A stretch of 63,975 bases of DNA from a virus. Shown here piece after piece: positions 2,491 to 63,975 of the stretch (positions are counted from its first letter, which is position 1; every line of letters starts with the position of its first letter). Below the pieces are notes generated by a model. The model had not been told where the DNA came from. It searched no databases and saw only the letters and a list, made by a program, of their open reading frames with translations. The position numbers were made by a program, and so were the translations under genes. Location of the stretch: IMG/VR virus record IMGVR_UViG_3300043411_000844, positions 1 through 63,975 of that record; one strand, 5' to 3'.

Positions 2491-2675
2491 TCCCCTTCCC
2501 CCGGAAGAAGCAGATCAAACCAAACAACGTCTTCCCCGCTGTCCAGCACGTGCATCCTCTGATCCGCTGCGAGAAGTGCAAGGGGTACTACCGGCAGGGG
2601 AGGGCGCTGTTCCATGTGTGCCCTTCGGAGCAGCAGAGGCGGGCGATGAAGCAGGAGATGCGCCGGGATGTCTGA
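2487..2675 (+). CDS. Small zinc-finger-like protein
   Basis: A 62-residue product from a GTG start that overlaps the methyltransferase stop (GTGA). It carries CEKC at residues ~27-30 and a later FHVCPSEQ, so one Cys pair plus a His/Cys could hold a metal. The N-terminus and C-terminus are basic (RKKQIK, RRAMKQEMRRD). It is squeezed between two DNA methyltransferases, overlapping the next by eight bases. No family recognised; an accessory to DNA binding is possible. Confidence 0.6.
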   Translation: MIPFPRKKQIKPNNVFPAVQHVHPLIRCEKCKGYYRQGRALFHVCPSEQQRRAMKQEMRRDV

Positions 2676-3666
2676 GCTTCGTGTCCTGGATTTGTTCAGC
2701 GGAATCGGAGGGTTCTCACTTGGCCTTGAAAGAGCAGGCATGCGCACCGTCGCCTTCTGCGAGATCGATCCGTTCTGCCGGCGAGTGCTCGCCAAGCACT
2801 GGCCAGGCGTCCCCTGCTACGAGGACGTCAGAACCCTTACAGCCGACGCTCTTTCCCGAGACGGAATTGCCGTCGATGTCATCTGCGGCGGCTTCCCCTG
2901 CCAAGACATCAGCTTCGCTGGCAAGCGCGCTGGCCTCGAAGGTGCGCGATCTGGTTTGTGGGGAGAGTATGCCCGACTCATTGGCGAGCTACGACCCCGC
3001 TTCGTCATCGTGGAGAACGTCCCAGGCTTGCTTTCTCTCGGGATGGGTCGAGTTCTCGGAGACCTTTCCGCGCTCGGGTACGATGCGACGTGGGATTGTG
3101 TCCCAGCTTGCGCCGTCGGCGCCCCTCACAGACGCGATCGGGTCTGGGTCGTTGCCCACTCCCAGAGCGGAGGGGTTCGACGCCGGCGGAGCGGACCCGA
3201 GACGCAGCCTGCATTCCTACGTCAAGAAATCATTGCTCCCGACTCCATCGGCGACGAGCTACGGCAGCAACCAAGGCGGAGCCGCCGGACGGGTCGGCAA
3301 GGTGAGGCCGTCGCTCGAGACGATGGCCAAGCACGGGCTCTGGCCGACGCCGACAAGTTCGCTAGGCACGAAGGGCGGACGGGTCACGCCGCAGAAAAGC
3401 CGGGAAGGCGGAACGCTGATCGAGGCCGTGAGTGCGAGGACCTGGTGGCCAACGCCAGACGCGAGCCCACACAAGTTTCGGCTTCAAGGCGACAGCCAGC
3501 AATCGAAGTCCCTACGGGGACAGATCGGTGGGAGTTTGAACCCGACGTGGGTCGAGTGGCTCATGGGGTTCCCGCTCGGGTGGACCGTCTGCGAGCCCTC
3601 GGCAACAGCGTCGTCCCGCAGATCCCGGAAATGATCGGCCGCGCCATTCTGGAGTCCGTTCAATGA
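2668..3666 (+). CDS. C5-cytosine DNA methyltransferase (Dcm family)
   Basis: The 332-residue enzyme methylates carbon 5 of cytosine in DNA. Motif I is LDLFSGIGGFSLGLE near residue 6, motif IV GGFPCQDISFAG near residue 75 with the catalytic Cys, motif VI VENVPG near 115, motif VIII RRDRVWVV near 156 and motif X RALGNSVVPQIPE near 309. The stretch between VIII and X (residues ~165-300) is Arg-rich and does not show a normal motif IX. In the +1 frame the same DNA encodes SLNPTWVEWLMGFPLGWT, which looks like motif IX. The locus is therefore either dual-coding or joined by frameshifting (see the overlapping frame at 2876). No cognate endonuclease is present. It overlaps the next gene by four bases. 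Confidence 0.9.
   Translation: MSELRVLDLFSGIGGFSLGLERAGMRTVAFCEIDPFCRRVLAKHWPGVPCYEDVRTLTADALSRDGIAVDVICGGFPCQDISFAGKRAGLEGARSGLWGEYARLIGELRPRFVIVENVPGLLSLGMGRVLGDLSALGYDATWDCVPACAVGAPHRRDRVWVVAHSQSGGVRRRRSGPETQPAFLRQEIIAPDSIGDELRQQPRRSRRTGRQGEAVARDDGQARALADADKFARHEGRTGHAAEKPGRRNADRGRECEDLVANARREPTQVSASRRQPAIEVPTGTDRWEFEPDVGRVAHGVPARVDRLRALGNSVVPQIPEMIGRAILESVQ
2876..3634 (+). CDS. Overlapping second-frame ORF inside the cytosine methyltransferase gene
   Basis: A frame shifted relative to the methyltransferase is open for 252 codons from this ATG, and further upstream. It has protein-like regularity: four copies of an LPTP/WPTP motif (LPTPRAEG, LLPTPSAT, LWPTPTSS, WWPTPDAS), the string SWRTSQACFLSGWVEFSETF, and a C-terminus SLNPTWVEWLMGFPLGW. 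From memory, near-identical motifs occur in separately annotated phage proteins beside dcm genes. The end matches the expected motif IX of C5 methyltransferases, while motif X is in the other frame. It may be a separate accessory protein or part of a frameshift product. The start at 2876 is the last ATG before the conserved part and is a guess. Confidence 0.5.
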   Translation: MSSAAASPAKTSASLASALASKVRDLVCGESMPDSLASYDPASSSWRTSQACFLSGWVEFSETFPRSGTMRRGIVSQLAPSAPLTDAIGSGSLPTPRAEGFDAGGADPRRSLHSYVKKSLLPTPSATSYGSNQGGAAGRVGKVRPSLETMAKHGLWPTPTSSLGTKGGRVTPQKSREGGTLIEAVSARTWWPTPDASPHKFRLQGDSQQSKSLRGQIGGSLNPTWVEWLMGFPLGWTVCEPSATASSRRSRK

Positions 3667-4984: not shown

Positions 4985-5866
4985 TCAGGCGACGCGAACG
5001 AGACGGACCTTGCGGCCGTCTCTGTGCTTGTGGATCGCTCCAGCGTCCTCGGCAGCAGAAGCCCATTTCGAGGCCGTGCCTTTGGGAACGCCAAGCCTCC
5101 GAGCGAGCTCGTCATTGGATGCCTCCCCCTTCTCAAGCGCGGCGAGCACGCGGCGGACAACCTCAGTCACCGCAGCGTCTTCAGAGGCGGCTGCCGGCCG
5201 CTCCGTAGCCAATGCCTCCCTGCCATGGCCGAACATCGGCAGGAGGATCGAGAAGGCGAGGAGGGCGTAAGCCCCCAGTAGCGTCGGCGCTGCCTCCGCT
5301 ACCACCTCCGGGACATTGAGCGTCGCCGCCACAATGTTCTCGGCCCGGATTGTGCCGGCCTTCCGCGCGGCTTCCGCCTTCGCTTGCGCGTCGACCTTGG
5401 CCGCTTCGAGCTGCTCTTTCAGACCGCGGCAAATGGATTTGCACCCTTTGTCTTTGGTCTCGCGCGTCACCTCCTGAGAGAGGCGGACAACCTCGGCATT
5501 GGCCGTGTTCTCAGCAGCCTGGGCGGCTGCCACGCTCGCGTTGTGCGTCCTCGTGGCCTCTGCCCGGATCTCGCGACCGTGCAGAAGTCCCTCGAACGTG
5601 TTGTAGAAACCGGTGGCTTCAGACGCGACCACTGCCAGCAGCAGCAGCGCGGCGTATCTCCCCCGGCCTTGGGCGCGCGCCCGGATCGCTGCGGCGATTG
5701 CCACGGCTCCCAGTGCGGCCAGAGCTCCGGCTGTGATGACGGCTGGCTTTTGCCAGTCGAGACCCCCATCAAGCAGTTTGTCGACGTTGGCATAGCCCAC
5801 AAGGGCCATGCTCAACGCTCCGCCCCCGGTTGCGATGTGGCGGAGTTTGGGATAGTAATTCCCCAT
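4985..5866 (-). CDS. Multi-pass membrane protein with coiled coil and winged-helix-like tail
   Basis: The 293-residue product starts at the ATG at 5866, preceded by GAGGAGA. An upstream in-frame ATG at 5926 lacks a comparable site. Hydrophobic segments occur near residues 13-25, 38-60, 70-85 (AALLLLAVVAS) and ~195-215 (GAYALLAFSILLPMFG). Between segments 3 and 4 lies an Ala/Glu-rich coiled coil with a Cys pair (GCKSICRGL). The tail (EKGEASNDELARRLGVPKGTASKWASAAEDAGAI) resembles a small winged helix. It is transcribed against the replication operon, closed by its own terminator, and is probably expressed in the lysogen (a moron). The family is not recognised. Confidence 0.7.
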   Translation of the reverse strand: MGNYYPKLRHIATGGGALSMALVGYANVDKLLDGGLDWQKPAVITAGALAALGAVAIAAAIRARAQGRGRYAALLLLAVVASEATGFYNTFEGLLHGREIRAEATRTHNASVAAAQAAENTANAEVVRLSQEVTRETKDKGCKSICRGLKEQLEAAKVDAQAKAEAARKAGTIRAENIVAATLNVPEVVAEAAPTLLGAYALLAFSILLPMFGHGREALATERPAAASEDAAVTEVVRRVLAALEKGEASNDELARRLGVPKGTASKWASAAEDAGAIHKHRDGRKVRLVRVA

Positions 5867-5950
5867 TGCGATTCTTCTCCTCGGAAGGGTTGGACTCGCA
5901 CCGGGGCCCGCCGTGGTGTCAGCCAAAGCGGGCCCCTATAAAACGCAAAA

Positions 5951-5979
5951 GGCCCCGCACTCCTTTCGGAGCCGGGGCC
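5951..5979 (-). terminator. Intrinsic terminator for the minus-strand gene 5987-6358
   Basis: GGCCCCG at 5951 pairs with CGGGGCC ending at 5979, with extra pairs inside (CTCC with GGAG). Read on the minus strand the stem is followed by TTTTGCGTTTT, a good terminator tail. Some transcripts may read through into the membrane-protein gene. Confidence 0.75.
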
Positions 5980-5986
5980 CTTGTCG

Positions 5987-6358
5987 TCAGACTTCCATGT
6001 AGACGCGGCAGTTGACAGACGTTGAGACTTTCGGGTTGCTCGGCTGGCGCTCGTCTTGATGGTAAAGCCAGCATGCACCCTTGCGCGCGAATGGTAGTCG
6101 CGTAAGGGTGGCTTTCGGGATGGCCTTGTCGACCTCCCCCGAAAAGCTCATATAACCCGTGCCGAGATAGAACTCGTACTCATCGGATTTGCCATTCGAT
6201 GCAGTCTGAATGACATCGCCGTTGATATGGGCAACTCGCCTCAGGGCCCCGTTTTTAAGTTGGAGAAAGTCCCCAACCCGTGGCCCGTCTCTCATCTCCC
6301 ATAGCCTGCAACGCTCGGCTACTATCCTCGCGTCACGGTCGTCAAAACGTGGTCTCAT
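5987..6358 (-). CDS. Hypothetical protein, beta-rich
   Basis: A 123-residue product from the ATG at 6358, preceded by GAGGAGA nine bases upstream. The same CCGAGGAG leader precedes the minus-strand genes at 5866 and 9123. The sequence (VGDFLQLKNGALRRVAHI, then DEYEFYLGTGYMSFSGEV) alternates like a small beta barrel, as in SH3-like domains, with no catalytic motif. It is the first gene downstream of the structured leader and promoter at 6609. Function unknown. Confidence 0.65.
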   Translation of the reverse strand: MRPRFDDRDARIVAERCRLWEMRDGPRVGDFLQLKNGALRRVAHINGDVIQTASNGKSDEYEFYLGTGYMSFSGEVDKAIPKATLTRLPFARKGACWLYHQDERQPSNPKVSTSVNCRVYMEV

Positions 6359-6608
6359 GTAATGGTCTCCTCGGATGCAATAGACCAAAGAGGGCGGCCT
6401 TGTGAGCCGCCCTTGCAATGTCCCTGCGCTCTGTGGTGCAGGCCCCGAAGGGCCTGACCAGGTCTCCTATCGTGTTGCGGCACGATTGGACCCGCAAGAG
6501 TTCAAGCCGGGTGCCGGTTATCTCCGGTCCTCTGGGCCCGTCTCGGCTCCGGTGGAAGTCCCAGCTCGTCACTGGGGCCAACGGGGCGTCGATGTCGTCT
6601 ACCATCTA
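6359..6608 (-). other. Structured 5' region or leader with three perfect hairpins
   Basis: This ~250-base stretch upstream of the minus-strand gene has no convincing ORF; a minus frame from 6605 is Arg-rich and looks non-coding. Read on the minus strand it contains a hairpin ATCGTG/CACGAT (6469-6486), CAGGCCC-TTCG-GGGCCTG (6439-6456) closed by a stable UUCG tetraloop, and GGGCGGC/GCCGCCC (6392-6412) followed by CTCTTTGG. The last could act as an attenuator just before the gene at 6358. It may be a long regulatory leader or a small RNA. Confidence 0.45.
6392..6412 (-). terminator. Hairpin, possible attenuator
   Basis: GGGCGGC (6392-6398) and GCCGCCC (6406-6412) form a perfect seven-base stem with a seven-base loop. 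On the minus strand the next bases are TCTTTGG, a weak T-tract. It lies about 35 bases before the start codon at 6358, where it could control expression. Confidence 0.45.
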
Positions 6609-6635
6609 AGTATACCACAAACGCAAAACGTTCAA
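6609..6635 (-). promoter_or_regulatory. Promoter for leftward accessory genes, extended -10
   Basis: On the minus strand TTGAAC (6635-6630) is followed after 15 bases by TGG-TATACT (-10 at 6614-6609), a consensus extended -10. The predicted start is about 6602. It diverges from the promoter at 6710, and the AACGTT repeats that may bind the ribbon-helix-helix protein overlap its -35. Confidence 0.6.
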
Positions 6636-6711
6636 CGTTGTTTTTCGATCAACTTTCCGTGAACAAGCGGAACATGACTAGAACAAACGCTCATTTTCAG
6701 GTAAAACGTTT
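6627..6711. promoter_or_regulatory. AACGTT operator-like repeats between divergent promoters
   Basis: The palindromic hexamer AACGTT occurs twice in tandem at 6627-6632 and 6634-6639, separated by one C, and again within AAACGTTT at 6704-6711. The first pair overlaps the leftward -35 and the last overlaps the rightward -35. Closely spaced palindromic half-sites suit a ribbon-helix-helix (Arc-like) repressor such as the one encoded at 6745. The link between protein and sites is inference. Confidence 0.5.
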
Positions 6712-6738
6712 GACATTGCGTCGCAGGGCCAATATGTG
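6710..6738 (+). promoter_or_regulatory. Promoter for the ribbon-helix-helix gene, possibly leaderless
   Basis: TTGACA at 6710-6715 matches the -35 consensus exactly and TATGTG at 6733-6738 follows after 17 bases. The predicted start falls at about 6745, which is the A of the ATG, so the transcript may begin at the start codon, as lambda cI does from PRM. Confidence 0.7.
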
Positions 6739-6744
6739 AGGGGC

Positions 6745-7032
6745 ATGGCCAGACCCCGCAAAGACAAAGAAATCAACGCCGATGACTTCCTCGGCATTCG
6801 AATCACTGAGGCCATGAAGAAGGCCATCAAGGTTCGAGCTCGAAAGCACCGGCGCACACTAGCGGCTGAAGTCCGGGCCATGCTCGAGACCGCGATCAGC
6901 CAGGCGGAGGGGCATGGGCAGGCTCTCGATGAATTGGGATCTGGGGGACTCTCCGGAGGAGAGCCTTGCGAGGCTCAAACGCAAGCTACGGGGGCAGCAT
7001 CCGGAGGCGGACCGAATCATTCGGGAGATTGA
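6745..7032 (+). CDS. Ribbon-helix-helix (Arc-like) transcription regulator
   Basis: A 95-residue protein. Residues ~10-55 (DDFLGIRITEAMKKAI, then HRRTLAAEVRAMLETAI) have the short strand plus two helices typical of Arc/CopG proteins; these bind DNA as dimers through the strand. The last ~35 residues are Gly/Ala-rich and overlap the next gene in another frame. The ATG at 6745 is preferred over the GTG at 6736 because the promoter predicts transcription starting there. It probably represses both divergent promoters through the AACGTT sites. Confidence 0.7.
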   Translation: MARPRKDKEINADDFLGIRITEAMKKAIKVRARKHRRTLAAEVRAMLETAISQAEGHGQALDELGSGGLSGGEPCEAQTQATGAASGGGPNHSGD

Positions 7033-7738
7033 GCAGCGAATTGACGGCCTGGAAGGGAAGGAGTGGCGCGCTAAGCCGGAACCGAAGTCGAGGCTGGTCT
7101 ATCGGATCTTCGATCCCGCGCGTCGACTGATGTATGTGGGTCTGACGTTCAATTTGACCAACCGCCTGACAAATCACAGGCGGCGGGGAACTGTCGGAGT
7201 GAAGGCGCTGCTTGCCGGCGCGCATTCTGTTGAGGTGATGTCGCCTCAAATGCTCCCAGAAGCCGAAGCGCAAGCGCTGGAAACGTCTCTCATCCGGCGA
7301 TATCGACTCGAGGGCTGGGAAGTTCTGAACTTAAATCCGGGTGGCGGTTTGGGTGGGGCAATCCATTGCTGCCCTGGGGACCTGCTTGTGGCCGCGCAAC
7401 ACTGCACTAACAGGCGGCAATTCCAGCAATTTTACCCTACTCTGTACGACGCAGCGATCCGTAGCGGGCTTATCGAGGATGCGTTCGCGCTGCATCGTCT
7501 TTGGGGCTGGTCCCATCAGCCGCTTCGGGCATGGCCTCATATCGTGGCCGCCGCTCGCGCCTTCCCTGACTATCTGACGTTCGTGCAGCAATGCCCTGAT
7601 CTGGATGATTGCGTGCGATCGCTCCTCCGAATTGGGAAGCTGAGGCGCGAAGTCTGGCCTGGGGTGGCGCGGGAGCGTGGTGAACAGGCCAAGTTGGCCG
7701 CCATTCGCAAGGCTAGGTCTTTGAATCGAAGGGAATAA
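6914..7738 (+). CDS. GIY-YIG nuclease with homing-type DNA-binding repeat
   Basis: A 274-residue protein. Residues ~57-145 form a GIY-YIG fold: LVYRIFDPARRLMYVGLT holds the two core motifs, then HRRRG, the catalytic Glu in EAEAQALETSLIRRY, and LNLNPGGG. Residues ~155-185 (CTNRRQFQQFYPTLYDAAI) match the short repeat seen in phage homing endonucleases that helps read DNA. It cuts one strand or both at a specific site. The gene overlaps the regulator by 119 bases. The start at 6914 follows GGAGGGGC; an internal ATG at 6929 is an alternative. It may be a free-standing homing nuclease. Confidence 0.8.
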   Translation: MGRLSMNWDLGDSPEESLARLKRKLRGQHPEADRIIREIEQRIDGLEGKEWRAKPEPKSRLVYRIFDPARRLMYVGLTFNLTNRLTNHRRRGTVGVKALLAGAHSVEVMSPQMLPEAEAQALETSLIRRYRLEGWEVLNLNPGGGLGGAIHCCPGDLLVAAQHCTNRRQFQQFYPTLYDAAIRSGLIEDAFALHRLWGWSHQPLRAWPHIVAAARAFPDYLTFVQQCPDLDDCVRSLLRIGKLRREVWPGVARERGEQAKLAAIRKARSLNRRE

Positions 7739-7828
7739 ACGCAGCGCCATGCGTCGGAATGTCGCAGATACCCTCTATTGATGATCTCCGCCGATCGTGT
7801 TACGGTTTTTGGGTAATCTCGGGAGTAA

Positions 7829-7921
7829 ATGCGTCACCCGAGCCAATTCCCCACACAATCCGGCCTCGAAACCCTGGAGCAAAGCGCGATCCGCGCCTCC
7901 GGGCTCTTTGCGTTGCGCTGA
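7829..7921 (+). CDS. Possible 30-residue peptide
   Basis: ATG at 7829 follows CGGGAG and gives a 30-residue peptide ending at TGA 7919-7921, directly before another ATG (TGAATG). The sequence has no hydrophobic segment and no known motif. Support is only the ribosome site and coupling to the next small gene. Confidence 0.35.
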   Translation: MRHPSQFPTQSGLETLEQSAIRASGLFALR

Positions 7922-7960
7922 ATGCCGTGGGGCTCTGATTCGCAATCCTCGAGGTGCCAC

Positions 7961-8086
7961 ATGGCCGCCTTTGCTTCGCGTGTCGCGGCCGGTGAGCTGC
8001 CGGCGCTGCTGTCGCTCGGGCTGCTCTTGGGTGGCCTCGGGGTGATTGCCTGCTTGTGCCTGGCGCTGGCCGGCCATGGCGATTAA
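7961..8086 (+). CDS. Small single-pass membrane protein (41 residues)
   Basis: The product is almost entirely a membrane segment: residues ~13-37 include LPALLSLGLLLGGLG followed by VIACLCLALA. GAGG lies seven bases before the ATG; an in-frame ATG at 7922 would add 13 polar residues. It overlaps the next gene by 11 bases. Small membrane proteins like this in phages often affect lysis timing or the host envelope; the role is not shown here. Confidence 0.5.
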   Translation: MAAFASRVAAGELPALLSLGLLLGGLGVIACLCLALAGHGD

Positions 8087-8300
8087 CCGGGCTGTGGGGC
8101 CGGCGCGACCGGGCACGACCTTTGAATACGCCAAGGGCTGCCACGCGGTCGTGACTCATCTGATGGACAAACGCGGCTGCGATGTCCAGGACCCGGCTCG
8201 GGCCGTGACTGCGGTGATTTACACGGTCGACGGCTCGTTCTGCATAGCGCTGCGAGCTCAAGATCGCAAGCTCATCAAGCTAGCTGCGGGGAGTGCCTGA
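8076..8300 (+). CDS. Hypothetical 74-residue protein
   Basis: Starts at the ATG inside the end of the small membrane gene and stops directly before the next ATG (TGAATG at 8298-8303), so it sits in a coupled mini-operon. It has three Cys residues and alternates like a small alpha/beta fold (HAVVTHLMDKRGCDVQ, AVIYTVDGSFCIAL). No family recognised. Confidence 0.6.
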   Translation: MAINRAVGPARPGTTFEYAKGCHAVVTHLMDKRGCDVQDPARAVTAVIYTVDGSFCIALRAQDRKLIKLAAGSA

Positions 8301-8390
8301 ATGCAAGCGCTCAACTACCTGGCCGCCGCTGCTCTGTGCTTCGCAGTCGCTTGGATATTCGTGATCCTCGCCACTGCGGCCGGCTACTGA
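8301..8390 (+). CDS. Tiny membrane peptide (29 residues)
   Basis: ATG immediately after the previous stop. The 29 residues are one hydrophobic helix (LAAAALCFAVAWIFVILATA) with no charged residue. Too short for standard gene finders, but the exact coupling TGA-ATG supports it. Confidence 0.45.
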   Translation: MQALNYLAAAALCFAVAWIFVILATAAGY

Positions 8391-8462
8391 CTGCCTAGCC
8401 TCTGTACTGCCGCTCCATAGCGGTATGGTGTCCCTGTCCCCGCCACAACAACCGATGGTGTC

Positions 8463-8795
8463 ATGACGAAACGCAACCGCAAGACCTCCGCTCGTGCCAA
8501 TGGCAAGCGCCTGGCCGCTCCGAAGCCGGCCGAAACCGCCCCGCAGACAAACCCGATCGCCGATCGCCTGCGAGCTCTGGCCGATGAAATCGACAAGGGC
8601 GGGGTCGATAGCTGGGTGGTGTGCGCTGTCCGCCCCGATGGCCGCTTCTCGGCGGAGAGCAACTTCGGTACCCATCACCTGACCGCGCTCGGCTTCATGC
8701 AGGCGCTATGCTCGAAGATGGCCGTATGGTCCGCCGCAGCTCTGTTCGGGGTCTCGAGCCTCACGCCGGCCGCACAAGGCCAGATCCAGCGCTAG
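8463..8795 (+). CDS. Hypothetical 110-residue protein
   Basis: Basic N-terminus (KRNRKTSARANGKR), then a helix (NPIADRLRALADEIDK) and a strand-rich part ending in a weakly hydrophobic segment (MAVWSAAALFGVSSL). The pattern 'VDSWVVCAVRPDGRFSAES' resembles small phage proteins of unknown function. It ends about 100 bases before the terminator at 8893. Confidence 0.55.
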   Translation: MTKRNRKTSARANGKRLAAPKPAETAPQTNPIADRLRALADEIDKGGVDSWVVCAVRPDGRFSAESNFGTHHLTALGFMQALCSKMAVWSAAALFGVSSLTPAAQGQIQR

Positions 8796-8892
8796 GCAAG
8801 CGGGAGCGCAACGGCAACCGATTAGCGGTCGTCATCAGAGGGGAAATCGCGTGTGGGCGTGTATAGCGCATGACGCGCGCGCGTGAAACGAA

Positions 8893-8924
8893 AAAACCCC
8901 GCCAGCCTAAGCCGACGGGGTTTT
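8893..8924. terminator. Bidirectional intrinsic terminator
   Basis: AAAACCCCG pairs with CGGGGTTTT around a 14-base loop; the A and T runs make it work in both directions. It separates the + strand gene ending at 8795 from the minus-strand gene ending at 8929. Confidence 0.85.
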
Positions 8925-8928
8925 CACG

Positions 8929-9123
8929 TTACAGGCGACCGCGGAGCCAATCCCGGAAGGCCAGACCCGCGAAGATCAGGCCGGACCCGACTGCGCCGAC
9001 GATGACGAACCATGACGGCATGTCACCGGATGCGGCCGCGACAGAGCCCCAGAAACCGCCCCAGGCCATAGCGAGAGCCAGGAAGCCGGCGAACGACACG
9101 ACCGAGAATGCCTTAGCAAGCAT
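8929..9123 (-). CDS. Small two-pass membrane protein (isolated inverted gene)
   Basis: A 64-residue protein from the ATG at 9123, preceded by CCGAGGAGA. It has two membrane segments, FAGFLALAMAWGGFWGSVA and WFVIVGAVGSGLIFAGLAF, with a short polar loop between them and a basic C-terminus (RDWLRGRL). It has its own promoter and terminator and points against its neighbours, the pattern of a moron gene expressed from the prophage. Function unknown; superinfection exclusion is one guess. Confidence 0.65.
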   Translation of the reverse strand: MLAKAFSVVSFAGFLALAMAWGGFWGSVAAASGDMPSWFVIVGAVGSGLIFAGLAFRDWLRGRL

Positions 9124-9179
9124 GCGGATTCTCCTCGGATTGTGGGAAGCAGTCGACCTCAAATGGATCGACTAAACCC

Positions 9180-9188
9180 ATTGTACCA
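9180..9188 (-). promoter_or_regulatory. Extended -10 promoter element for gene 8929-9123
   Basis: On the minus strand TTGTGG-TACAAT places an extended -10 with TG one base before the hexamer. The same TTGTGGTA string precedes the -10 at 6614. No good -35 is visible, which is acceptable for extended -10 promoters. Confidence 0.5.
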
Positions 9189-9224
9189 CAACTCTAACTG
9201 CGACATAGTGACGCACCATAGGCC

Positions 9225-9998
9225 ATGGCATTGACATCTCCGGGGAAGCCCGCAAAGCCCAGCCGCTCACCTCGCAAGCGCGTGCAAGCCTGGGTACTAG
9301 ACGCCGCAGACCGGGCTGAAGGCAAGGCCGCTAAGGAGCCCATCCTCGACCGCGAGGACAAGGAAGCAGGCGAACGCTACGGCCTCCCCCTGAAAACAGT
9401 CACCCGCGCCGCTCGCAAACGTGGCAAGGCTGTAGACCTCATCGGCACCGGACTGCCAGTCCTAAGCCCCAAACACCTCAAATTCGTTGAAGCGCTCGTT
9501 ACTGGAGCAGCTAGCAACGCCATAGAAGCCTACAGGATAGCTTACGGTAACGACCACGCCAGCAGACAAAGCCTGTGGAAGAAGTCGTCCGACCTCAAGT
9601 CCGACCCTAGAACACAAGCATGGCTCCAAGCCTACAGCCTCGCTGCCCTAGACGACATGATGACGACAGCAGACAGGCATGTGGCCCAACTCGCTCGCAT
9701 CCGGGAAGCAGCGCTCGCAAGCGGGGATTTCAAGGCCGCAAGCATGGCTGAGCTCTCGAGGGGTAAGGTTGCAGGGCTTTACCAATCAACCCTTGTCGTG
9801 GAGCATCGCGCGAACGATTCGGCGCTCGTCGACGCTCTCACGCGGGCCTTAGGCGCTGATACTGCTCAGCAATTAGCCTCGCAGCTCGGCATCAAGGCGC
9901 TACCTGGCGACAACGCCCGGCAGATCGTGGTTGACGCTGCAATCGGTGACGCCTCGGTGACTGTGACCGCAGGCGAAGACGACAAAGACGAGGATTGA
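9225..9998 (+). CDS. Terminase small subunit
   Basis: A 257-residue protein that should recognise phage DNA for packaging and pass it to the large subunit at 20156. Residues ~80-140 (LSPKHLKFVEALVTGAAS, NAIEAYRIAYG, then SDLKSDPRTQAWLQ) match the small-terminase pattern of an HTH followed by the conserved Lys-x-Pro-x-V-like step. The N-terminus is basic and the C-terminus acidic (EDDKDED). It is unusual that about ten kilobases of other genes separate it from the large subunit. A GC-rich, G-run-rich spacer follows and could be the packaging site. Confidence 0.75.
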   Translation: MALTSPGKPAKPSRSPRKRVQAWVLDAADRAEGKAAKEPILDREDKEAGERYGLPLKTVTRAARKRGKAVDLIGTGLPVLSPKHLKFVEALVTGAASNAIEAYRIAYGNDHASRQSLWKKSSDLKSDPRTQAWLQAYSLAALDDMMTTADRHVAQLARIREAALASGDFKAASMAELSRGKVAGLYQSTLVVEHRANDSALVDALTRALGADTAQQLASQLGIKALPGDNARQIVVDAAIGDASVTVTAGEDDKDED

Positions 9999-10245
9999 CA
10001 GGGGCTTAGCCCCATGCCTGCCGATATGTAAGAGTTAACAGACACCCCCTCGAGCCCATGCTGTGACCCTGTCGCGCGTCACGAGGCTGTGCTTGCGGTG
10101 CTGGTGGCCGTCGTCGTCAGGGTGGGGTGGCGCGGGGTGGCGCGGGCAGGGTGAGGCACGCGGGAGGGGTGGGGAGGCCGGGGGGCGGCACCCCCCAGGG
10201 GTGGCCTACTTCAACTCAGTTCCCCTTCCTACATCCAGCCGCTCT
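9999..10245. other. Non-coding G-rich spacer, candidate packaging (pac) or regulatory region
   Basis: About 245 bases without a convincing gene. GGGGCT-T-AGCCCC at 10002-10014 is a perfect short hairpin. From ~10120 to 10185 there are many runs of three to six G on the + strand (GGGTGGGGTGGCGCGGGG and others), enough for G-quadruplexes, ending in a GGGG/CCCC fold near 10178-10200. A frame is open here but codes a Gly/Arg-rich sequence with no protein-like features. Lying directly after the small terminase, it is a reasonable pac candidate. Confidence 0.4.
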
Positions 10246-10506
10246 ATGGCCCTCAACATTTTGCGCAGGCCGTATCCGAATTATGTCGAGGCATTCCACA
10301 AGATGTTGACGAAATCGCCTGGAATTGACCGGTTGATCGACATTGTGGGGTCTGGTCAGTCTGTGGCGAGGGCGTTGGGGATGTCGCCGACGCAGGTGTC
10401 ACGGGTGAGGTTGGGACAGAGTGGGGAGCGGGAGTATTTCGCAGCGTTGGCGGAGTTGCTGGAGTTGGTTCCGATCAAGGACTGGCCGGAGCGGTGGAAC
10501 CGATGA
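10246..10506 (+). CDS. Small HTH protein
   Basis: An 86-residue product. Residues ~30-60 (LIDIVGSGQSVARALGMSPTQV) have the spacing of a helix-turn-helix: helix, Gly turn, recognition helix (SPTQVSRVRLG). The ATG at 10246 is chosen because upstream codons are low-complexity; an ATG at 10303 is possible. It overlaps the next gene as ATGA. It may regulate the sugar island that follows. Confidence 0.5.
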   Translation: MALNILRRPYPNYVEAFHKMLTKSPGIDRLIDIVGSGQSVARALGMSPTQVSRVRLGQSGEREYFAALAELLELVPIKDWPERWNR

Positions 10507-10754
10507 GCGACAAGATCGTGCCGCTTCGGGTGATCCCGGCTGAGGAGATGCGTGGGGCGGCGAACGGCGAAGCGATTGAGATGCTGGAGCGGGCGCTGGT
10601 GCGGGTCCGGCTGGGCGAGATGCAGTCTGTGGCGCTGGTGATGGCCTACGCGGACGGCAGCGTCGAGACGGCGTGGGCACAGCGGTCGCAGATACACCAT
10701 TTGACGTCGGGGGCGGCGTCGCTTTTGCAGCGGCTGGCGAGCGGCAAGGAATGA
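10503..10754 (+). CDS. Hypothetical 83-residue protein
   Basis: Starts at ATGA overlapping the previous stop and ends in another ATGA overlap. The pattern (NGEAIEMLERALVRVRLGE, then VALVMAYADGSVETAW) resembles small phage proteins of one helix followed by two strands. No known function; its position makes it part of the operon that enters the sugar island. Confidence 0.55.
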   Translation: MSDKIVPLRVIPAEEMRGAANGEAIEMLERALVRVRLGEMQSVALVMAYADGSVETAWAQRSQIHHLTSGAASLLQRLASGKE

Positions 10755-11398
10755 GCATCCTGATCGGGACACCCTGCTACGGCGGGATGGTGACGGAGGG
10801 GTATCTGCTCTCGTGTCTGGCGCTTCGCAAGGAGATGCTGGCGGTGGGGCTGGGGCACGACTGGCTGACGCTCAGGAATGAGAGCCTGATCCAGCGGGGC
10901 CGGAACGTGATCGCGGCGAGCTTTTTGCGCGAGACGGAGTTCCAGGCGCTGCTGTTCATCGACGCCGACATCGAGTTCGAGCCCGAAGGGGTGGCTCGGC
11001 TGTGGAATTTGATCGCCGACGGGGCTGATGTGGCGGTCGGGGCCTACCGGATGAAGCGTCCGGGGGCTGGGTTGGCGGCCTGGCGGGGCGGCAAGCTCGT
11101 CGAGATCGGGGAAAAGGACGTTCTGCCCTTCGAGGTCGACTACGCCGGCACCGGTTTCATGATGATTTCGCGGAAAACGCTGGAGATCATCGCGGAAAAA
11201 CACCCGGAGATCGAGCACGAGGAAGGCCAGGTCGGGAAATGCTGGGCGTTCTTCGATACGCGGGTCGTAAATGACGGGGCGGGGCCGTTCTACTGCTCTG
11301 AAGACTACTTTTTCTGCCGGATGGTGCGCCATCTGGGCATGCGGGTCGTCATGGACCCGCAAATTTCGCTGAAACACCACGGACAGGCGGTTTACTGA
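10751..11398 (+). CDS. Glycosyltransferase-like protein, GT-A fold (family 2-like)
   Basis: A 215-residue protein. It opens with a strand (MSILIGTPCYGG) and residues ~50-75 give NVIAASFLRETEFQALLFIDADIEFE, where DAD is the metal- and nucleotide-sugar-binding DxD motif of GT-A enzymes. GAYRMKRPG and FCRMVRHLG follow the usual order. It would move a sugar from a nucleotide donor to an acceptor in the cytoplasm. It is the first gene of the island; start and stop overlap the neighbours by four and one bases. Confidence 0.7.
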   Translation: MSILIGTPCYGGMVTEGYLLSCLALRKEMLAVGLGHDWLTLRNESLIQRGRNVIAASFLRETEFQALLFIDADIEFEPEGVARLWNLIADGADVAVGAYRMKRPGAGLAAWRGGKLVEIGEKDVLPFEVDYAGTGFMMISRKTLEIIAEKHPEIEHEEGQVGKCWAFFDTRVVNDGAGPFYCSEDYFFCRMVRHLGMRVVMDPQISLKHHGQAVY

Positions 11399-12009
11399 TG
11401 GCAAAACCAAAGAAACCCACACCGGCTCCCGCCGAGCCAGTGGAGAAAACGGTGATCGCTGCGGGCTACGTCGCGACCGTGCCGTTCGAGGAGGCACTGA
11501 AGGCGACCTCCGTCGTGATCCCGGTCAAAGCGACGGTTGCCGACACCCCGCCCCCGGTTTCCGGCCCGCGCAAGAACGCGCCGAGCGGAGCCAAGCGGCT
11601 GGTGCATAACGGCGTCGTCGTCGACATCCCCGACACCGTCAAACGCAGGGCTCAGATGTCCTACGACGAGACGAGCGTCGATGTCGAGTGCCCGAAGGAC
11701 ATGGATGCCGAGTCCTTCCGCGCCTACGTCGAGCACGCGGCCTCCGAGATGGCGATGCTCCTCGACGAGCGCAACCGCCGCTCGAAGCAGTCGAAGGCCG
11801 CCGAGCGCAATCTGACTGAGATGCGCGCCTCGATCGCCGCCCTCACCATCGAGAGCGCCGGCGGGGCCGAGCTCTACGCCCGCATGTTCGAGCAGAAAGC
11901 CGTCGATGTGGCACAGGCCACGCGCCGCGCCGCCGATGCCTCCTTCCTGCTCAAGGCTCAGGACGCCCTCCTCGAGGACGCCAAGCGCCGTTGGCTCAGC
12001 GCGGAGTAG
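11398..12009 (+). CDS. Hypothetical protein with C-terminal coiled coil
   Basis: A 203-residue protein with a Lys/Pro/Ala-rich start (KPKKPTPAPAEP), a middle domain and a long charged helix from residue ~100 on (ERNRRSKQSKAAERNLTEM, later EDAKRRWLSAE). The ATG overlaps the previous stop by one base. No family recognised. It may hold a complex together; nothing in it suggests an enzyme. Confidence 0.6.
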   Translation: MAKPKKPTPAPAEPVEKTVIAAGYVATVPFEEALKATSVVIPVKATVADTPPPVSGPRKNAPSGAKRLVHNGVVVDIPDTVKRRAQMSYDETSVDVECPKDMDAESFRAYVEHAASEMAMLLDERNRRSKQSKAAERNLTEMRASIAALTIESAGGAELYARMFEQKAVDVAQATRRAADASFLLKAQDALLEDAKRRWLSAE

Positions 12010-12605
12010 GCCCGGCCGAGCTGTTCGGTCACTTCGGCATGAGCCGGGACATCTTCCCGGCTGAGTTCTTAGGCAAAGAGAAGGGCGACGTTCTCATCGT
12101 CGGCGGTGGCCGCTCGGTCTGGGACGATGTCGCTAAGCTCTGGCCTCTGCCCGAGGCCGTCATCGCCGTCAATGACATCGGCATGTACTGGCCGGGCTAC
12201 CTCAAAGGCTGGTACTCGAACGACGCCGTGCAACTGAAGGCGTGGCACGCTGGCCGGCGGCACTGGTGGGAGCAAATCTACAAGCAGACGATCCCGCTGC
12301 ATTCCTGCTTCGCAGAGAAAGCCGGAGGTGGCGTCCACAACTGGCCGTTCCCCGCTCACGGGAGCTCTGGCCTGGTGGTGACACTGATGGCGCTCGCCAT
12401 GGGCTATGAGCGCCTCTGGATGGCGGGCATCCCGCTCGACGACACCGGACATTTCTACGATCCGCCGACCGGACACCCGCTCGTGCGCGGCCGCAAGCTC
12501 TCGAACTTCGAGAACGAAACAAGGGACAGGACGCTCGAGAACCTGAAGCCGCTCCTCAAGGGGCGGATCAAGGCCGCCTCGGGCCGGCTCCTGGAATTTG
12601 CATGA
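11991..12605 (+). CDS. DUF115/sugar-transferase-like Rossmann protein
   Basis: A 204-residue protein. GDVLIVGGGRSVWDDV near residue 32 is a nucleotide-binding strand-loop-helix and VIAVNDIGMYWPGYLKGWYSND follows. This order resembles the 6-hydroxymethylpterin-kinase-like DUF115 proteins that sit in surface-glycan and flagellin-glycosylation loci. LVVTLMALAMGYERLWMAGI fits that fold. The TTG at 11991 has GAGGA upstream; the ATG at 12039 is an alternative. Specific substrate unknown. Confidence 0.55.
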   Translation: MAQRGVGPAELFGHFGMSRDIFPAEFLGKEKGDVLIVGGGRSVWDDVAKLWPLPEAVIAVNDIGMYWPGYLKGWYSNDAVQLKAWHAGRRHWWEQIYKQTIPLHSCFAEKAGGGVHNWPFPAHGSSGLVVTLMALAMGYERLWMAGIPLDDTGHFYDPPTGHPLVRGRKLSNFENETRDRTLENLKPLLKGRIKAASGRLLEFA

Positions 12606-51076: not shown

Positions 51077-51316
51077 TTACTCCCTCCGCAACGCAACCAC
51101 CTCACTGTCTGGAAAATGCTTCCGAGCGTCCCGCATGATCTGGGTCTGCTCGGCCGTCCTGATGTCCCTGACGAGTTGCCGGATCGGTTCGGCCCATTTG
51201 AGGAGGAACTCGAGGTTGGCCCGAGCTCCTGCCGCGATCGCCGCATCCTCGGCCGACAGGAGGCGCTCGGCGAGGAGCCGACTGTGCAAGTCGATCTGTT
51301 GCTCGAGCGGGCTCAT
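51077..51316 (-). CDS. Hypothetical 79-residue helical protein
   Basis: All-helical look (LEQQIDLHSRLLAERLLSAEDA, LEFLLKWAEPIRQLVRDIRTAEQ). GTG/ATG region overlaps the previous (upstream) gene by four bases. No motif known. Confidence 0.55.
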   Translation of the reverse strand: MSPLEQQIDLHSRLLAERLLSAEDAAIAAGARANLEFLLKWAEPIRQLVRDIRTAEQTQIMRDARKHFPDSEVVALRRE

Positions 51317-51504
51317 TGTCTGAGGACGGCCGCCAGTTGGCTGATCGTTGCCGCAAGCGACGCCTCGTCCCAGGCCGCATTCCGCTTGGCTTGCACCCCG
51401 CGCTCATTCTTCAGGAGCACGCGGACGTGCTCCGGGCCCGGCTCGAGCAGAACCGTTATGCCGGTGAGCGCGAGATCGCTGATGGCGGCCTGGAGAAGCA
51501 TCAT
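51313..51504 (-). CDS. Hypothetical 63-residue protein directly downstream of the IS end
   Basis: ATGATG at 51504/51501 lies inside the 8-bp target duplication of the IS element, so the coding sequence is intact. Helical and hydrophobic in part (LLQAAISDLALTGITVLLEP). The IS end leaves TATATAAT seven bases before the ATG, a -10-like box that may drive it as a leaderless message. Before the insertion the gene was coupled to 53774-53983 through TGATG. Confidence 0.55.
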   Translation of the reverse strand: MMLLQAAISDLALTGITVLLEPGPEHVRVLLKNERGVQAKRNAAWDEASLAATISQLAAVLRQ

Positions 51505-51506
51505 TG
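51499..51506. repeat. Target-site duplication, left copy (CATCATTG)
   Basis: CATCATTG here and at 53772-53779 flank the IS1595-type element. Eight bases is the duplication length known for the IS1595 family. Reading it on the minus strand gives CAATGATG, the former stop/start overlap of two phage genes. Confidence 0.85.
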
Positions 51507-51528
51507 GGGAATTATATAGTTCACTCCC
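51507..51528 (+). repeat. IS1595 left terminal inverted repeat
   Basis: GGGAATTATATAGTTCACTCCC. The right end read inward is GGGAATTATATATTTTAGTCCC. Read outward from the left end, it gives a TATATAAT box directly before the phage gene at 51504. Confidence 0.85.
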
Positions 51529-51667
51529 GCGCATCCTTTTTCTTCTCGCGTATGAGCTTGGCCTTGCGAAGCTTTCTCGCTTTCGCGGGCCCCGATTTCG
51601 GCTTGGGCCGGAACGCCAAAACCTTGTCCGCAGCGGCGTCCAGCGCCTTCTTGTGATCGGGTTTCAT
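51521..51667 (-). CDS. Small basic IS1595 passenger protein (48 residues)
   Basis: ATG 51667 with AGGAG upstream. The product is Lys/Arg-rich (FRPKPKSGPAKARKLRKAKL), a type I recall next to IS1595 transposases. Ends inside the left inverted repeat. Likely nucleic-acid binding; function unproven. Confidence 0.55.
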   Translation of the reverse strand: MKPDHKKALDAAADKVLAFRPKPKSGPAKARKLRKAKLIREKKKDARE

Positions 51668-51675
51668 GGGTGCTC

Positions 51676-52593
51676 CTAATGCGTGAGAGCTTTGTAAGTC
51701 AGGCGCTTGCCTGCAACGCCGTCAATGAAGCTATCAAGCCTCTGTAGCGTGTGGCGCTTTACGTCGCCTTCGTTCAGGCGGAAGGAAAATTCGTCGACGT
51801 AGCGGCCTAGATGCTTCTTGCTGGTATGGTGATAGACGCCAATGATCCCGCGCTTCATGACCGCAAAGACGCTCTCGACGCCGTTCGTGGTCACGTTGTC
51901 GCGGACGTATTCGCCGTCGCTGTGGTTGACGGTTTCGTGGTCGAAAAACAGGCCGTTAAGGCCGCGATAGACAGCCGCTTCGTCAGTGTGGAGCGTCGAG
52001 CCGACTTCCACATTCTGATAAATTTTAGTGTGGAGCGTCGCCATATCCGCGTCTTCGATCGGCATAGCCTTCATGCGTCCGCCGCGCTCACGCATTGCGA
52101 CAACAGCAGTTTTTCCTACTACGCCGCGTCCCGCTTTGAGCTTTTTATGCTCATGCTTGTTAGCTTCTTTTCCGCCAACATAGGTTTCGTCAATTTCGAC
52201 AATGCCTTGGAGCTTTTCGATATCGCTCCCACAAGCCTCTCTGAGGCGGTGCAGCACAAACCATGCGGACTTTTGCGTGGTCCCGATTTCCTTCGCGAGT
52301 TGCATTGACGAAATGCCCTTGCGCGCCGTGACGAGCAAATACATCGCGTAGACCCACTTGTGCAGCGGAACATGGCTGCGCTCGAAAATCGTTCCGGTGC
52401 GGACAGTGAAGTCTTCCTTGCACTGGTTGCAGCGGTAGAAGCCGCCCTTACGGGTAGTGATCCGCTCGCCAAGGCCGCAGACAGGACATCTCGGACCATT
52501 CGGCCAAAGCCGCCCCTCCAAATATGCGCGGGCGGCCTCTTGGTCGGGAAACATAGCAAAAAGCTCAAACGTCGAAATGGTGGATTTACTCAT
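51676..52593 (-). CDS. IS1595-family transposase (ISXO2-like DDE)
   Basis: A 305-residue transposase. N-terminal zinc ribbon (CPVCGLGE ... RCNQCKEDF) for DNA binding; HTH-like helix (SSMQLAKEIGTTQKSAWFVL); catalytic DDE/N core: EIDETYVGGKEAN, STLHTDEAAVYRG, and TTNGVESVFAVMKRGIIGVYHH. RYVDEFSFRLNEGD is the usual C-terminal block. All catalytic residues are present, so it may be active. Start ATG 52593 with GGTGGAGA upstream; a longer frame to 52803 exists. Confidence 0.95.
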   Translation of the reverse strand: MSKSTISTFELFAMFPDQEAARAYLEGRLWPNGPRCPVCGLGERITTRKGGFYRCNQCKEDFTVRTGTIFERSHVPLHKWVYAMYLLVTARKGISSMQLAKEIGTTQKSAWFVLHRLREACGSDIEKLQGIVEIDETYVGGKEANKHEHKKLKAGRGVVGKTAVVAMRERGGRMKAMPIEDADMATLHTKIYQNVEVGSTLHTDEAAVYRGLNGLFFDHETVNHSDGEYVRDNVTTNGVESVFAVMKRGIIGVYHHTSKKHLGRYVDEFSFRLNEGDVKRHTLQRLDSFIDGVAGKRLTYKALTH

Positions 52594-52609
52594 GATTCTA
52601 TGTCTCCAC

Positions 52610-52828
52610 CTAAAGAGAAATCGCGGGATTACATGTGGCGCAAAACCAAACGCCACCGAGAAAAACCGGCTTATCGCCAACGGGATAGCCGCAATCGGCG
52701 CATTGCCTGTTGTCCCATTGGTCCAGCGCCGCCGAATATGCGTCAGCTCCAGGTCTGCCATCGCAATCCTGTGGGCATACGGGCCAATTGCAGAGATGGC
52801 CACCTCGATGGCACGGGATAGTGCTCAT
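52610..52828 (-). CDS. IS cargo: Cys-rich zinc-finger protein
   Basis: A 72-residue protein with many Cys (NWPVCPQDCDGRPG, QCADCGYPVGDKP, FCATCNPAISL) that could hold one or two zinc ions. It lies next to the transposase in the same direction. No family recognised. Confidence 0.55.
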   Translation of the reverse strand: MSTIPCHRGGHLCNWPVCPQDCDGRPGADAYSAALDQWDNRQCADCGYPVGDKPVFLGGVWFCATCNPAISL

Positions 52829-52841
52829 GGCTTATTTCCCT

Positions 52842-53078
52842 TCAGAACTTAGATGATTGATCTAGGGCGTAGGCGGCGTGAACAACCCGCAGCGCCGCTT
52901 GCATCATTTGTCGGAGTTCGTAAGCCTCCTTGCGCATCAATGCGCTTTCCCGACACGCCCAAGTCAGAGCGGCGGGTCTGCCTGGATTGGCGTTCCACCC
53001 TGCTTCCGCCATACGTTCAACTAGTTCCAAATCATGAGACTGACGCAAAATACTCATAGCCTTTGGGTCCTTACTCAT
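52842..53078 (-). CDS. IS cargo: hypothetical 78-residue protein
   Basis: Helical protein (SHDLELVERMAEAGWNANPG, YELRQMMQAALRVVHAAYAL). It overlaps the gene upstream by four bases. No recognised family. Confidence 0.55.
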   Translation of the reverse strand: MSKDPKAMSILRQSHDLELVERMAEAGWNANPGRPAALTWACRESALMRKEAYELRQMMQAALRVVHAAYALDQSSKF

Positions 53079-53332
53079 CGTTTTCGCCTTTCAAGATGGG
53101 AGGCCACCCAGCGTTCGGCTTGAGCCCTCAGCGCCAACCTCAGGCGCGCGTCATCGTTTTCGTGGTAGTAGTAGGTCACATAGCGATCAGGCACTCGCGC
53201 GATAATAACGCGCCATGCTCCCGTCATTGCTTCGTCGCTAACCCCTATCGGAGCCCGCGCTACAGCCGCTTGTTCCGCCGTTGGAGTTGCCGCAACTGTC
53301 AGAAATTTGCCGTCATTTACCAATGTGCTCAT
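53075..53332 (-). CDS. IS cargo: hypothetical 85-residue protein
   Basis: Sequence with AWRVIIARVPDRYVTYYYHEND, mostly strands, then a helix (LRLALRAQAERWVASHLER). It overlaps its neighbours by four bases on both sides, so it is translationally coupled. Unknown. Confidence 0.55.
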   Translation of the reverse strand: MSTLVNDGKFLTVAATPTAEQAAVARAPIGVSDEAMTGAWRVIIARVPDRYVTYYYHENDDARLRLALRAQAERWVASHLERRKR

Positions 53333-53523
53333 GGCGCATTCCTCCTGCTAAATTCTTCCAAAAGGCGGACTGCCGCGAGCAAATTATCGACAGTCGTTGC
53401 CACATTGTAATCTAGCGGGCCTAGATGCAGGGTATTAAGGCCGCCTAAGGCTCTATCTATCTGAGCGCGACATTCTATTAGAGCGGGATCATCATAGAAT
53501 GTGTTATCCGCATCTATCTTCAT
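53329..53523 (-). CDS. IS cargo: hypothetical 64-residue protein
   Basis: Starts at ATG 53523, which overlaps the stop of the gene before it (ATGA). An in-frame ATG at 53535 lacks a better site. The product is helical (LIECRAQIDRALGGLNTL, DNLLAAVRLLEEFSRRN). Unknown. Confidence 0.5.
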   Translation of the reverse strand: MKIDADNTFYDDPALIECRAQIDRALGGLNTLHLGPLDYNVATTVDNLLAAVRLLEEFSRRNAP

Positions 53524-53693
53524 GCCTTCACCCATACCGGCTTGCGGTTGCCACCCGTGAAGAAACGCTCGCCAAGCCGGATTAGACCGGCATTGCGGAG
53601 TTCGCAGGCTTCATTCCAGTAGCACTCGGCAGTGAACCAGCCGCGAGAAGCGATGGCGGAGAGAATTTTCTCTTTCTTTTTCTCGACAGTCAT
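53520..53693 (-). CDS. IS cargo: small winged-helix-like protein (57 residues)
   Basis: ATG 53693 follows GGGAGATACGCAA. The product (EKILSAIASRGWFTAECYWNEACELRN, then GLIRLGERFF) resembles a minimal winged helix with two helices and a hairpin. First gene after the IS promoter; possibly a regulator of the element. Confidence 0.5.
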   Translation of the reverse strand: MTVEKKKEKILSAIASRGWFTAECYWNEACELRNAGLIRLGERFFTGGNRKPVWVKA

Positions 53694-53720
53694 TTGCGTA
53701 TCTCCCTTGTTGATGGAAAC

Positions 53721-53749
53721 AAGGTATCTGACTCCCCCGCGATTGTCAA
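53721..53749 (-). promoter_or_regulatory. IS1595 internal promoter
   Basis: On the minus strand TTGACA (53749-53744) and TACCTT (53726-53721) are 17 bases apart, close to consensus. It starts just inside the right inverted repeat and would drive the five cargo genes and the transposase. Confidence 0.75.
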
Positions 53750-53771
53750 GGGACTAAAATATATAATTCCC
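53750..53771 (-). repeat. IS1595 right terminal inverted repeat
   Basis: Read inward it gives GGGAATTATATATTTTAGTCCC; 19 of 22 bases agree with the left end. The 8-bp duplication CATCATTG follows at 53772-53779. Confidence 0.85.
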
Positions 53772-53779
53772 CATCATTG
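53772..53779. repeat. Target-site duplication, right copy (CATCATTG)
   Basis: Second copy of the 8-bp duplication. It holds the stop codon of the gene ending at 53774, which is therefore undamaged. Confidence 0.85.
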
Positions 53780-53983
53780 CGGCGTGTCCGTGATCTCCAT
53801 CCCCGTGTAGTCGAGCTCGTTCACATCGGCGGCATCGTCCGTCGAGTAGATCACGCCCTGACCGTTGGGATAGCGAAACACGAGCGACACGTCGGCGGCA
53901 CCGGACTCCTCTTTGAGCTCATTGAGGGTCTCGATCCACTTGGCGATCTCGAAGGCACCGGGTCTCGTTTTGATGTCGGTCAT
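53774..53983 (-). CDS. Hypothetical 69-residue protein at the IS insertion edge
   Basis: A small acidic protein ([36 protein letters not shown]). Its stop TGA lies in the IS target duplication. Before insertion, this stop overlapped the start of the gene now ending at 51313 (TGATG). It overlaps the upstream HNH gene by four bases. Confidence 0.6.
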
Positions 53984-63373: not shown

Positions 63374-63975
63374 ATGCGTGAACCTATCGAGCGCTGGGTC
63401 GCCAAGCCGTTCATGAAGTTCTACCCCTCCGACCCGGTGGACTGGTGGAAGGGCTGCGTTGCCGGCCCTGACGACCGCCCCCGCACGTCTCGGCGGCTGT
63501 CCTACCTCACCCTCGACGAGGAGGGGCTGTATCATCGCATATGCAACTGGATGTACCTGACAGGTTACGACTTGCCCGGCGACAACATGGAAGCCGCCAA
63601 GGAGTTGCATGTCAACCACAACCAGTATGCGGTGGTGCTCGAGCGGCTGATCTACAAGGGCGCGCTCATCCGCTACCAAGGCACCGTGATCAGCAACCGG
63701 GTGCTGAAGGAACGGATCGCCTTCATCGACAAGAAGCAGCCCAAGACCAGCGCCAAGGCCGTGGCGGCTCGCGAACGCGAGACGAAGGCTCGCATCGTGA
63801 GGGATAGCCCGATCGGGGATACGCTCAGGGGTCTGCGCAAGGGGTTGGGAGCCCCGGAATTTGCCGATGTCATTGCACAGATCGAAGTCGTTTTGTCCGA
63901 GTACAAATCAAGGGAAAATGACCCCCCCAGTCAAGACGCTTCACCCCCCCAGTCAAGCCCGTTGACCCCCCCAGT
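63374..63975 (+). CDS. Replication initiator, N-terminal part (continues at base 1)
   Basis: ATG 63374, two bases after the previous stop. The first ~115 residues (FYPSDPVDWWKGCV, SYLTLDEEGLYHRICNWMYLTG, LVNHNQYAVVLERLIYKGALI-like) match the DUF1376 (YdaU) pattern of phage replication proteins. It continues into the iteron-coded linker and the C-terminal half at 1-789, giving 447 residues. The split at this point is an assembly cut, not a gene break. Confidence 0.8.
   Translation, partial: MREPIERWVAKPFMKFYPSDPVDWWKGCVAGPDDRPRTSRRLSYLTLDEEGLYHRICNWMYLTGYDLPGDNMEAAKELHVNHNQYAVVLERLIYKGALIRYQGTVISNRVLKERIAFIDKKQPKTSAKAVAARERETKARIVRDSPIGDTLRGLRKGLGAPEFADVIAQIEVVLSEYKSRENDPPSQDASPPQSSPLTPP
63929..63975 (+). 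repeat. Terminal 47-bp overlap, identical to bases 1-47
   Basis: Bases 63929-63975 equal bases 1-47 exactly. Joining the ends keeps the initiator reading frame and adds iteron copy 1 (63922) to copies 2-6. This is the signature of a circular assembly whose graph broke at the repeats, not of a biological terminal repeat. Confidence 0.9.

Follow-up and report, generated by a model that had tools for sequence, protein, structure and literature searches.

A cargo-carrying transposon of the IS1595 type in a phage genome, and its relatives with exchanged cargo

Positions 51507-53771 of the viral record IMGVR_UViG_3300043411_000844, whose whole length of 63,975 nucleotides we call the window, are occupied by an intact transposon of the IS1595 type, 2265 bp long and lying on the minus strand. 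Its terminal repeats, GGGAATTATATATTTTAGTCCC at the left (53750-53771) and GGGAATTATATAGTTCACTCCC, read inwards, at the right (51507-51528), are 22 bp each and match at 19 of 22 positions, and outside them stands a perfect 8-bp duplication, CATCATTG, at 51499-51506 and 53772-53779 (features given no strand). Eight base pairs is the target duplication of the IS1595 family, and the window agrees with it. Between the ends lie five small genes, then a transposase gene (51676-52593, 305 amino acids, aa) and, downstream of it, one more small gene (51521-51667) for a 48-aa basic protein, whose stop codon is contained in the right terminal repeat; all of these genes share the direction of the transposase. 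A promoter-like sequence, TTGACA-N17-TACCTT, can be read at the left end (53721-53749, minus strand). The window record holds a single copy of the element. The joined flanks are CCGCAATGATGCTT, in which the TGA stop of the upstream phage gene (53774-53983, minus strand, 69 aa) overlaps the ATG start of the downstream one (51313-51504, minus strand, 63 aa). This former ATGA overlap lies within the duplication, so that one copy holds the TGA and the other the ATG, and both phage genes stay whole despite the insertion. An in-frame ATG within the element (51534), reading through the right terminal repeat, would lengthen the downstream phage gene by 10 residues (51504-51534).

The transposase has the ISXO2-like DDE domain and the zinc ribbon that membership in the IS1595 family requires, with matches to PF12762 (2.4e-46, 158 bits against a cut-off of 27), PF12760 (41 bits against 25) and NF033547 (7.4e-61, 206 bits against 75). 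The catalytic motif of the family is D, D, N or E, K. Among 69 aligned transposases, D135, D204, N237, E240 and K247 are among the residues that are at least 97% conserved; the window keeps all of them, and they fit the motif. An earlier note on this DNA had claimed a cargo-carrying IS1595 element with intact ends, and the ends, the perfect duplication and the matches to PF12762 and NF033547 bear this out, as the GC content (54% for the cargo, 62% for the whole record) does its remark that the cargo is richer in A/T.

What kind of lineage does this element belong to? The genome_contigs collection yielded 29 loci with a relative of the transposase, 28 of them titled metagenome-assembled genomes, and viral_contigs yielded 60; by a second rule, matching ends and a duplication are present at 59 of these 89 loci. 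When viral_contigs was scanned for a single form of the end, at least 120 stretches appeared. The single end-plus-duplication rule produced 108 matches in 2.22 Mb of loci, which were chosen for holding relatives, and one in the window, and it produced none in the reversed, complement-only and five block-shuffled versions or in 64 terminase control loci. From 106 pairs under this rule come 94 insertions, the window included. These are a sample set by the end pattern, by peptide patterns and by the at least 120 end stretches, and taken from unannotated public contigs with crude calls of open reading frames (ORFs). A near-complete transposase is present in 70 of them and a partial one or none in the other 24, with no detectable transposase in 17. 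Viral-catalogue records, including the window, supply 76 insertions and genome_contigs 18. At least one pair, L032 and L034 (L numbers are our labels for loci), probably represents a single insertion present in two assemblies, and one of the 18, the element of L003, is identical to the L035 element in a viral record, the two contigs being equally long (50118 bp). We retained the outlier L029, with a transposase 44% identical and a length of 5.2 kb; it is a divergent element (5910-11092) whose opposite strand holds several longer genes, and the MazG-type and nucleotide-modification Pfam matches in the cargo set may belong to it.

The cargo of these elements is exchanged. The earlier note had proposed looking for the same element with different cargo, and such cases were found many times. 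There are two layouts among the 70 elements, with the cargo before the transposase in 33 and the transposase first in 37. L033, whose transposase is 95% identical to that of the window, has in common with it the first 72 bp and the part from the transposase to the right end, and the cargo between has been replaced. L031 (transposase 98%) is common with the window from the last cargo gene rightwards, at 95.7% over 1341 bp, and lacks the other four genes. L034, in another phage, carries the same five-gene cargo, with 90% identity over the whole element, a different duplication, and flanks that have no DNA in common with those of the window. Thus genes without a role in transposition, which mark an element as a tIS, lie between the ends in the window and are absent from relatives such as L033, and the comparison with L034 shows the same cargo within the ends at different targets, as for a unit that moves as one. 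One protein family, about 250-275 aa long and by eye likely to contain membrane helices, is common to the cargo of L015, L039 and L048; the L015 protein has no Pfam match.

Movement is also seen at L003, L036, L037 and L081, where copies 97.2-99.9% identical over 1561 bp have four different duplications and flanks with no DNA in common; since near-identical copies occupy different sites, the element moves. At L036 it interrupts a phage protein, the homologue of which in L113 runs uninterrupted through the site, with 27 identical residues among the 40 that span the junction. Three other candidate empty sites (L218/L216, L265/L016 and L071/L242) were not clean and were left unused. Targets are 82% A+T, as against 42% in the flanks. 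The earlier note placed the element exactly at a stop/start overlap, which is correct for the window, but targeting of gene junctions fails as a rule for the lineage: 58 of 86 insertions fall inside crude ORFs, compared with 77% of A/T-matched positions (p 0.054) and 87% of random positions. The strand of the insertion agrees with that of the neighbours in 36 of 66 cases, which is no bias.

Is the small gene downstream of the transposase part of the cargo? Of the 70 elements that have a near-complete transposase, 68 contain a relative of it, as do 7 of the 24 other insertions, and because of its presence in 68 of 70 we take it to be a core component and not cargo. The six-gene cargo of the earlier note, for which six small ORFs do exist, therefore comes down to the five upstream genes. 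A scan for the 48-aa gene found 62 new loci, with a transposase nearby in 46, ends and a duplication in 30, ends without a transposase in 7, and neither in 9. The gene is under strong purifying selection, the ratio of nonsynonymous to synonymous substitution rates (dN/dS) between the window and L034 being 0.07. Its predicted structure has two helices, with a local confidence score (pLDDT) of 87.8, and there was no match to it in the PDB. The protein may be a transposition helper or a regulator.

The five cargo genes of the window, all on the minus strand, are best described one at a time, with dN/dS values that again compare the window with L034. Gene 1 (53520-53693, 57 aa, dN/dS 0.23) appears winged-helix-like by eye only; its model is of middling confidence (pLDDT 69.6) and has no significant PDB match. 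Gene 2 (53329-53535, 68 aa, dN/dS 0.12) is partially matched in L344 by a 47-residue stretch that is 66% identical. Gene 3 (53075-53332, 85 aa, dN/dS 0.29) recurs in L347 (97% over 191 bp) and L348 (89% over 212 bp), and gene 4 (52842-53078, 78 aa) in L276 (86% over 266 bp) and L277 (94% over 169 bp). Gene 5 (52610-52828, 72 aa, dN/dS 0.12) is cysteine-rich and zinc-ribbon-like by eye, with relatives in L031, L032 and L034. The loci L276, L277, L344, L347 and L348 have neither ends nor transposase within the roughly 6 kb examined (about 3 kb each side), and in these five viral contigs the cargo genes occur singly. A cytosine methyltransferase is encoded in the L277 locus as well; it and the cargo of the L053 element are 67% identical over 159 residues. 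Because they are found in other viral contigs without the transposon, three of the five cargo genes are phage genes by origin, and the cargo is drawn from ordinary phage accessory genes. The earlier note held that finding the cargo at this place without the insertion sequence would prove its genes to be phage genes; three of the five do occur free of the transposon, but at other places. As all five are also carried jointly by the element of a second phage, L034, the descriptions "phage genes" and "transposon cargo" both apply. We consider it quite probable that the element is an autonomous IS1595 cargo transposon of the tIS kind that shuttles captured phage accessory genes.

What else does the lineage carry? 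The 94 insertions contain 180 cargo ORFs, and 94 representatives of at least 90 aa (of 95 listed), the window's genes excluded, were scanned. Their Pfam matches comprise 19 families in all, with nine N6/N4 methyltransferases, three PAPS reductases and two C5 methyltransferases, one each of D12, Dam, Mom, Nmad2, TIR and Beta protein, some others, and one transposase remnant. Methyltransferases also appear among the PHROGs matches (best 25 of 62 families) and PADLOC matches (best 25 of 127) of these 94 proteins. DNA-modification cargo was seen individually in L046 (Dam, slightly below the cut-off), L053, L057, L159, L195, L198, L218 and L225, and Mom in L191; L055, the L191 methyltransferase, L197, L203, L232, L241 and L265 were labelled by BLAST cluster or DNA identity, and the insertions labelled by cluster are consistent with the nine N6/N4 methyltransferases of the Pfam scan. 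Altogether 16 of the 94 insertions have a DNA-modification gene (methyltransferase or Mom). Such genes are found in 9 of the 17 transposase-less insertions and in 7 of the 77 that have a transposase match of any kind (Fisher p 1.4e-4), and in 16 of 76 insertions in viral records and none of 18 others (p 0.036), both p-values being rough, as the groups were sampled differently and the labels come in part from BLAST clusters. Several cassettes are simply a lone DNA-modification gene flanked by ends, 736-805 bp long. The viral contig of L191 has two transposase-less cassettes (1658-2462 and 11961-12588), one with a methyltransferase and one with a Mom-type gene, and that of L076 has both a transposase-bearing element (5003-6562) and a transposase-less one (9643-10378). 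For the lineage's cargo an anti-restriction role is plausible on these family assignments. The earlier note suggested a defence, anti-defence or exclusion module; anti-restriction would agree with this for the lineage, but among the window's own five genes no DNA-modification gene or other such function was recognized. It is possible, though we would lean the other way, that the window's cargo consists of small regulators or of host-takeover or counter-defence proteins.

The hosts of the lineage are mostly viral records. Among the isolated phages of INPHARED there were three matching records, all at 37% or less, and 417 plasmid records match, the best of them at 46.8% and none as high as 60%. 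When 385 genomes of one host's class were searched for the end pattern, it was present in the centre genome alone. Of 39 element-bearing viral records of at least 30 kb, a terminase is matched at E<=0.001 in 18 (in 15 over the family cut-off) and an integrase is present in 14; the rest are phages solely by catalogue label. As phage markers, phrog_2 was uninformative, and PF03354 and PF04860 were each found in 2 of 41 viral records. Enrichment of the lineage in phages over cells is suggested.

The window record itself is a phage, with an integrase (phrog_1), a terminase (phrog_5653), a head-tail adaptor (phrog_332) and a DnaB-like helicase. A 47-bp direct repeat, built of 22-bp iteron-like units ACCCCCCCAGTCAAG..., joins the ends of the record (1-101 and 63921-63975), and a replication-protein gene (34-789) adjoins it. 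The phage has two further DNA methyltransferases of its own outside the element (1387-2490 and 2417-3634). Relatives of its terminase are at most 55% identical, and no close relative of the carrier phage was found among them.

How might such elements serve phages? A more far-reaching reading, to which we give a probability of about 0.5, is that of a transposon lineage found largely in phages and acting as their gene-exchange vehicle, in which a conserved left-end promoter, transposase and helper move a slot for counter-defence and takeover genes, with a DNA-modification gene as the sole content of accompanying satellite cassettes. In the cargo-transposon reading that we prefer, the transposase acts on the GGGAATTATATA... 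ends and places the element into A/T-rich 8-bp targets. The left-end promoter would be read through the cargo, then the transposase, then the gene for the 48-aa protein. The cargo slot, which separates the left-end module from the transposase, is exchanged among elements and filled with captured phage accessory genes; in this way the lineage would take such genes from one phage to an unrelated one and, more rarely, to other replicons. The transposase-less cassettes, often a DNA methyltransferase gene between two ends, would probably be moved in trans. The benefit to the phage may lie in counter-defence or in host takeover. As for the single promoter of the earlier note, a looser form of the left-end pattern, TTGACx-N15-19-TAnnnT within the first 80 nt, is present in 37 of 70 relatives, as against 0.4 in shuffles. 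An operator palindrome, ACTCCC...GGGAGT, was rejected as a feature of the lineage, for it occurs in just 8 of 33 and 1 of 37 elements.

Several observations weigh against the preferred reading. The standard promoter scan does not report the window's copy of the promoter-like sequence, and 33 of the 70 relatives lack even the looser pattern. The lineage is not confined to phages: 18 of the 94 insertions are in genome-collection contigs, whose neighbouring genes (123 ORFs at 25 loci, with matches in 73 PHROGs families) match few phage families, the best 25 of the 73 including elongation factor, FabG and ABC transporter as well as integrases, but neither a terminase nor a portal by name. The genome-collection copies are spread over the transposase tree, with 13 changes against a shuffled mean of 14.5. 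The empty site hoped for in the earlier note was obtained for L036 but not for the window, since the flanking gene 53774-53983 has no relative in viral_contigs. Gene 4 has a dN/dS of 0.74, and none of the window's cargo genes has a Pfam, NCBIfam or PHROGs match at a useful score.

An ordinary IS1595 element might instead have taken up neighbouring DNA by chance, in which case the cargo would be a neutral hitchhiker from which the phage gains nothing. Fast cargo turnover and the large part of the cargo without recognized function, with 19 Pfam families among 94 proteins, would fit this, as would the known IS1595 elements with passengers (PMC5704250). Purifying selection on four of the window's five cargo genes (dN/dS 0.12-0.29) argues the other way, and so does the excess of DNA-modification genes in transposase-less cassettes (9 of 17 versus 7 of 77, with differing sampling and labels partly from BLAST clusters); we find the explanation possible but on the whole doubtful. 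Could the window's cargo be a defence or superinfection-exclusion module, directed against other phages during the prophage state? The carrier's integrase (phrog_1) and the TIR domain found once among the 94 cargo proteins would be in keeping with it, whereas the PADLOC matches of the relatives' cargo are methyltransferases and mads_2 (best 25 of 127 families), and the lack of useful family matches for the window's own genes does not favour it either, so that we think it unlikely. Least credible of all is that the five genes are native to the phage, with a transposon inserted beside them and ends that bracket them by coincidence: three of the five do occur in other viral contigs without the transposon, but the five sit between both ends and inside the duplication, and L034, with the same five between ends at a different target and in flanks unrelated to the window's, contradicts it.

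Elements similar to this transposon have been described. Passenger-carrying members of the IS1595 family include tISCpe8 and MTnSag1/tISSag10, which, as described in PMC5704250, are alike in having an IS1595 transposase, terminal repeats and passenger genes, their own involving a resistance gene and conjugative mobilisation. Here, by contrast, the records are mostly those of phages, the cargo is of phage accessory genes, and there are a conserved 48-aa gene and transposase-less cassettes. Phage morons and phage integron cassettes likewise bring accessory genes as units with their own promoter, but they depend on homologous or attC recombination, and the vehicle here is a DDE transposon with 8-bp duplications. 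Mobile insertion cassettes and miniature inverted-repeat transposable elements (MITEs) have ends and a duplication without a transposase. The 17 transposase-less members of the present lineage likewise have ends and a duplication but no transposase, with the difference that many enclose a single DNA-modification gene. A literature search, the scope of which excluded ISfinder and Siguier 2009, so that a listed subgroup is possible, gave no account of the lineage, the 48-aa gene or the cassettes. Passenger-carrying IS1595 elements are thus already known, and this lineage is apparently undescribed, though a described subgroup with these ends is possible.

The mosaicism of phage chromosomes is commonly attributed to recombinases. 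According to PMC8136500, insertion sequences are regarded as uncommon in phages, with transposases being very rare in the virulent ones. If the gene-exchange reading is true, counter-defence genes, such as methyltransferases and a Mom-type modifier, would have a direct route by which to jump between unrelated phages, with target duplications to mark each transfer, and the DNA-modification cargo could shield the carrier virus from bacterial defences.

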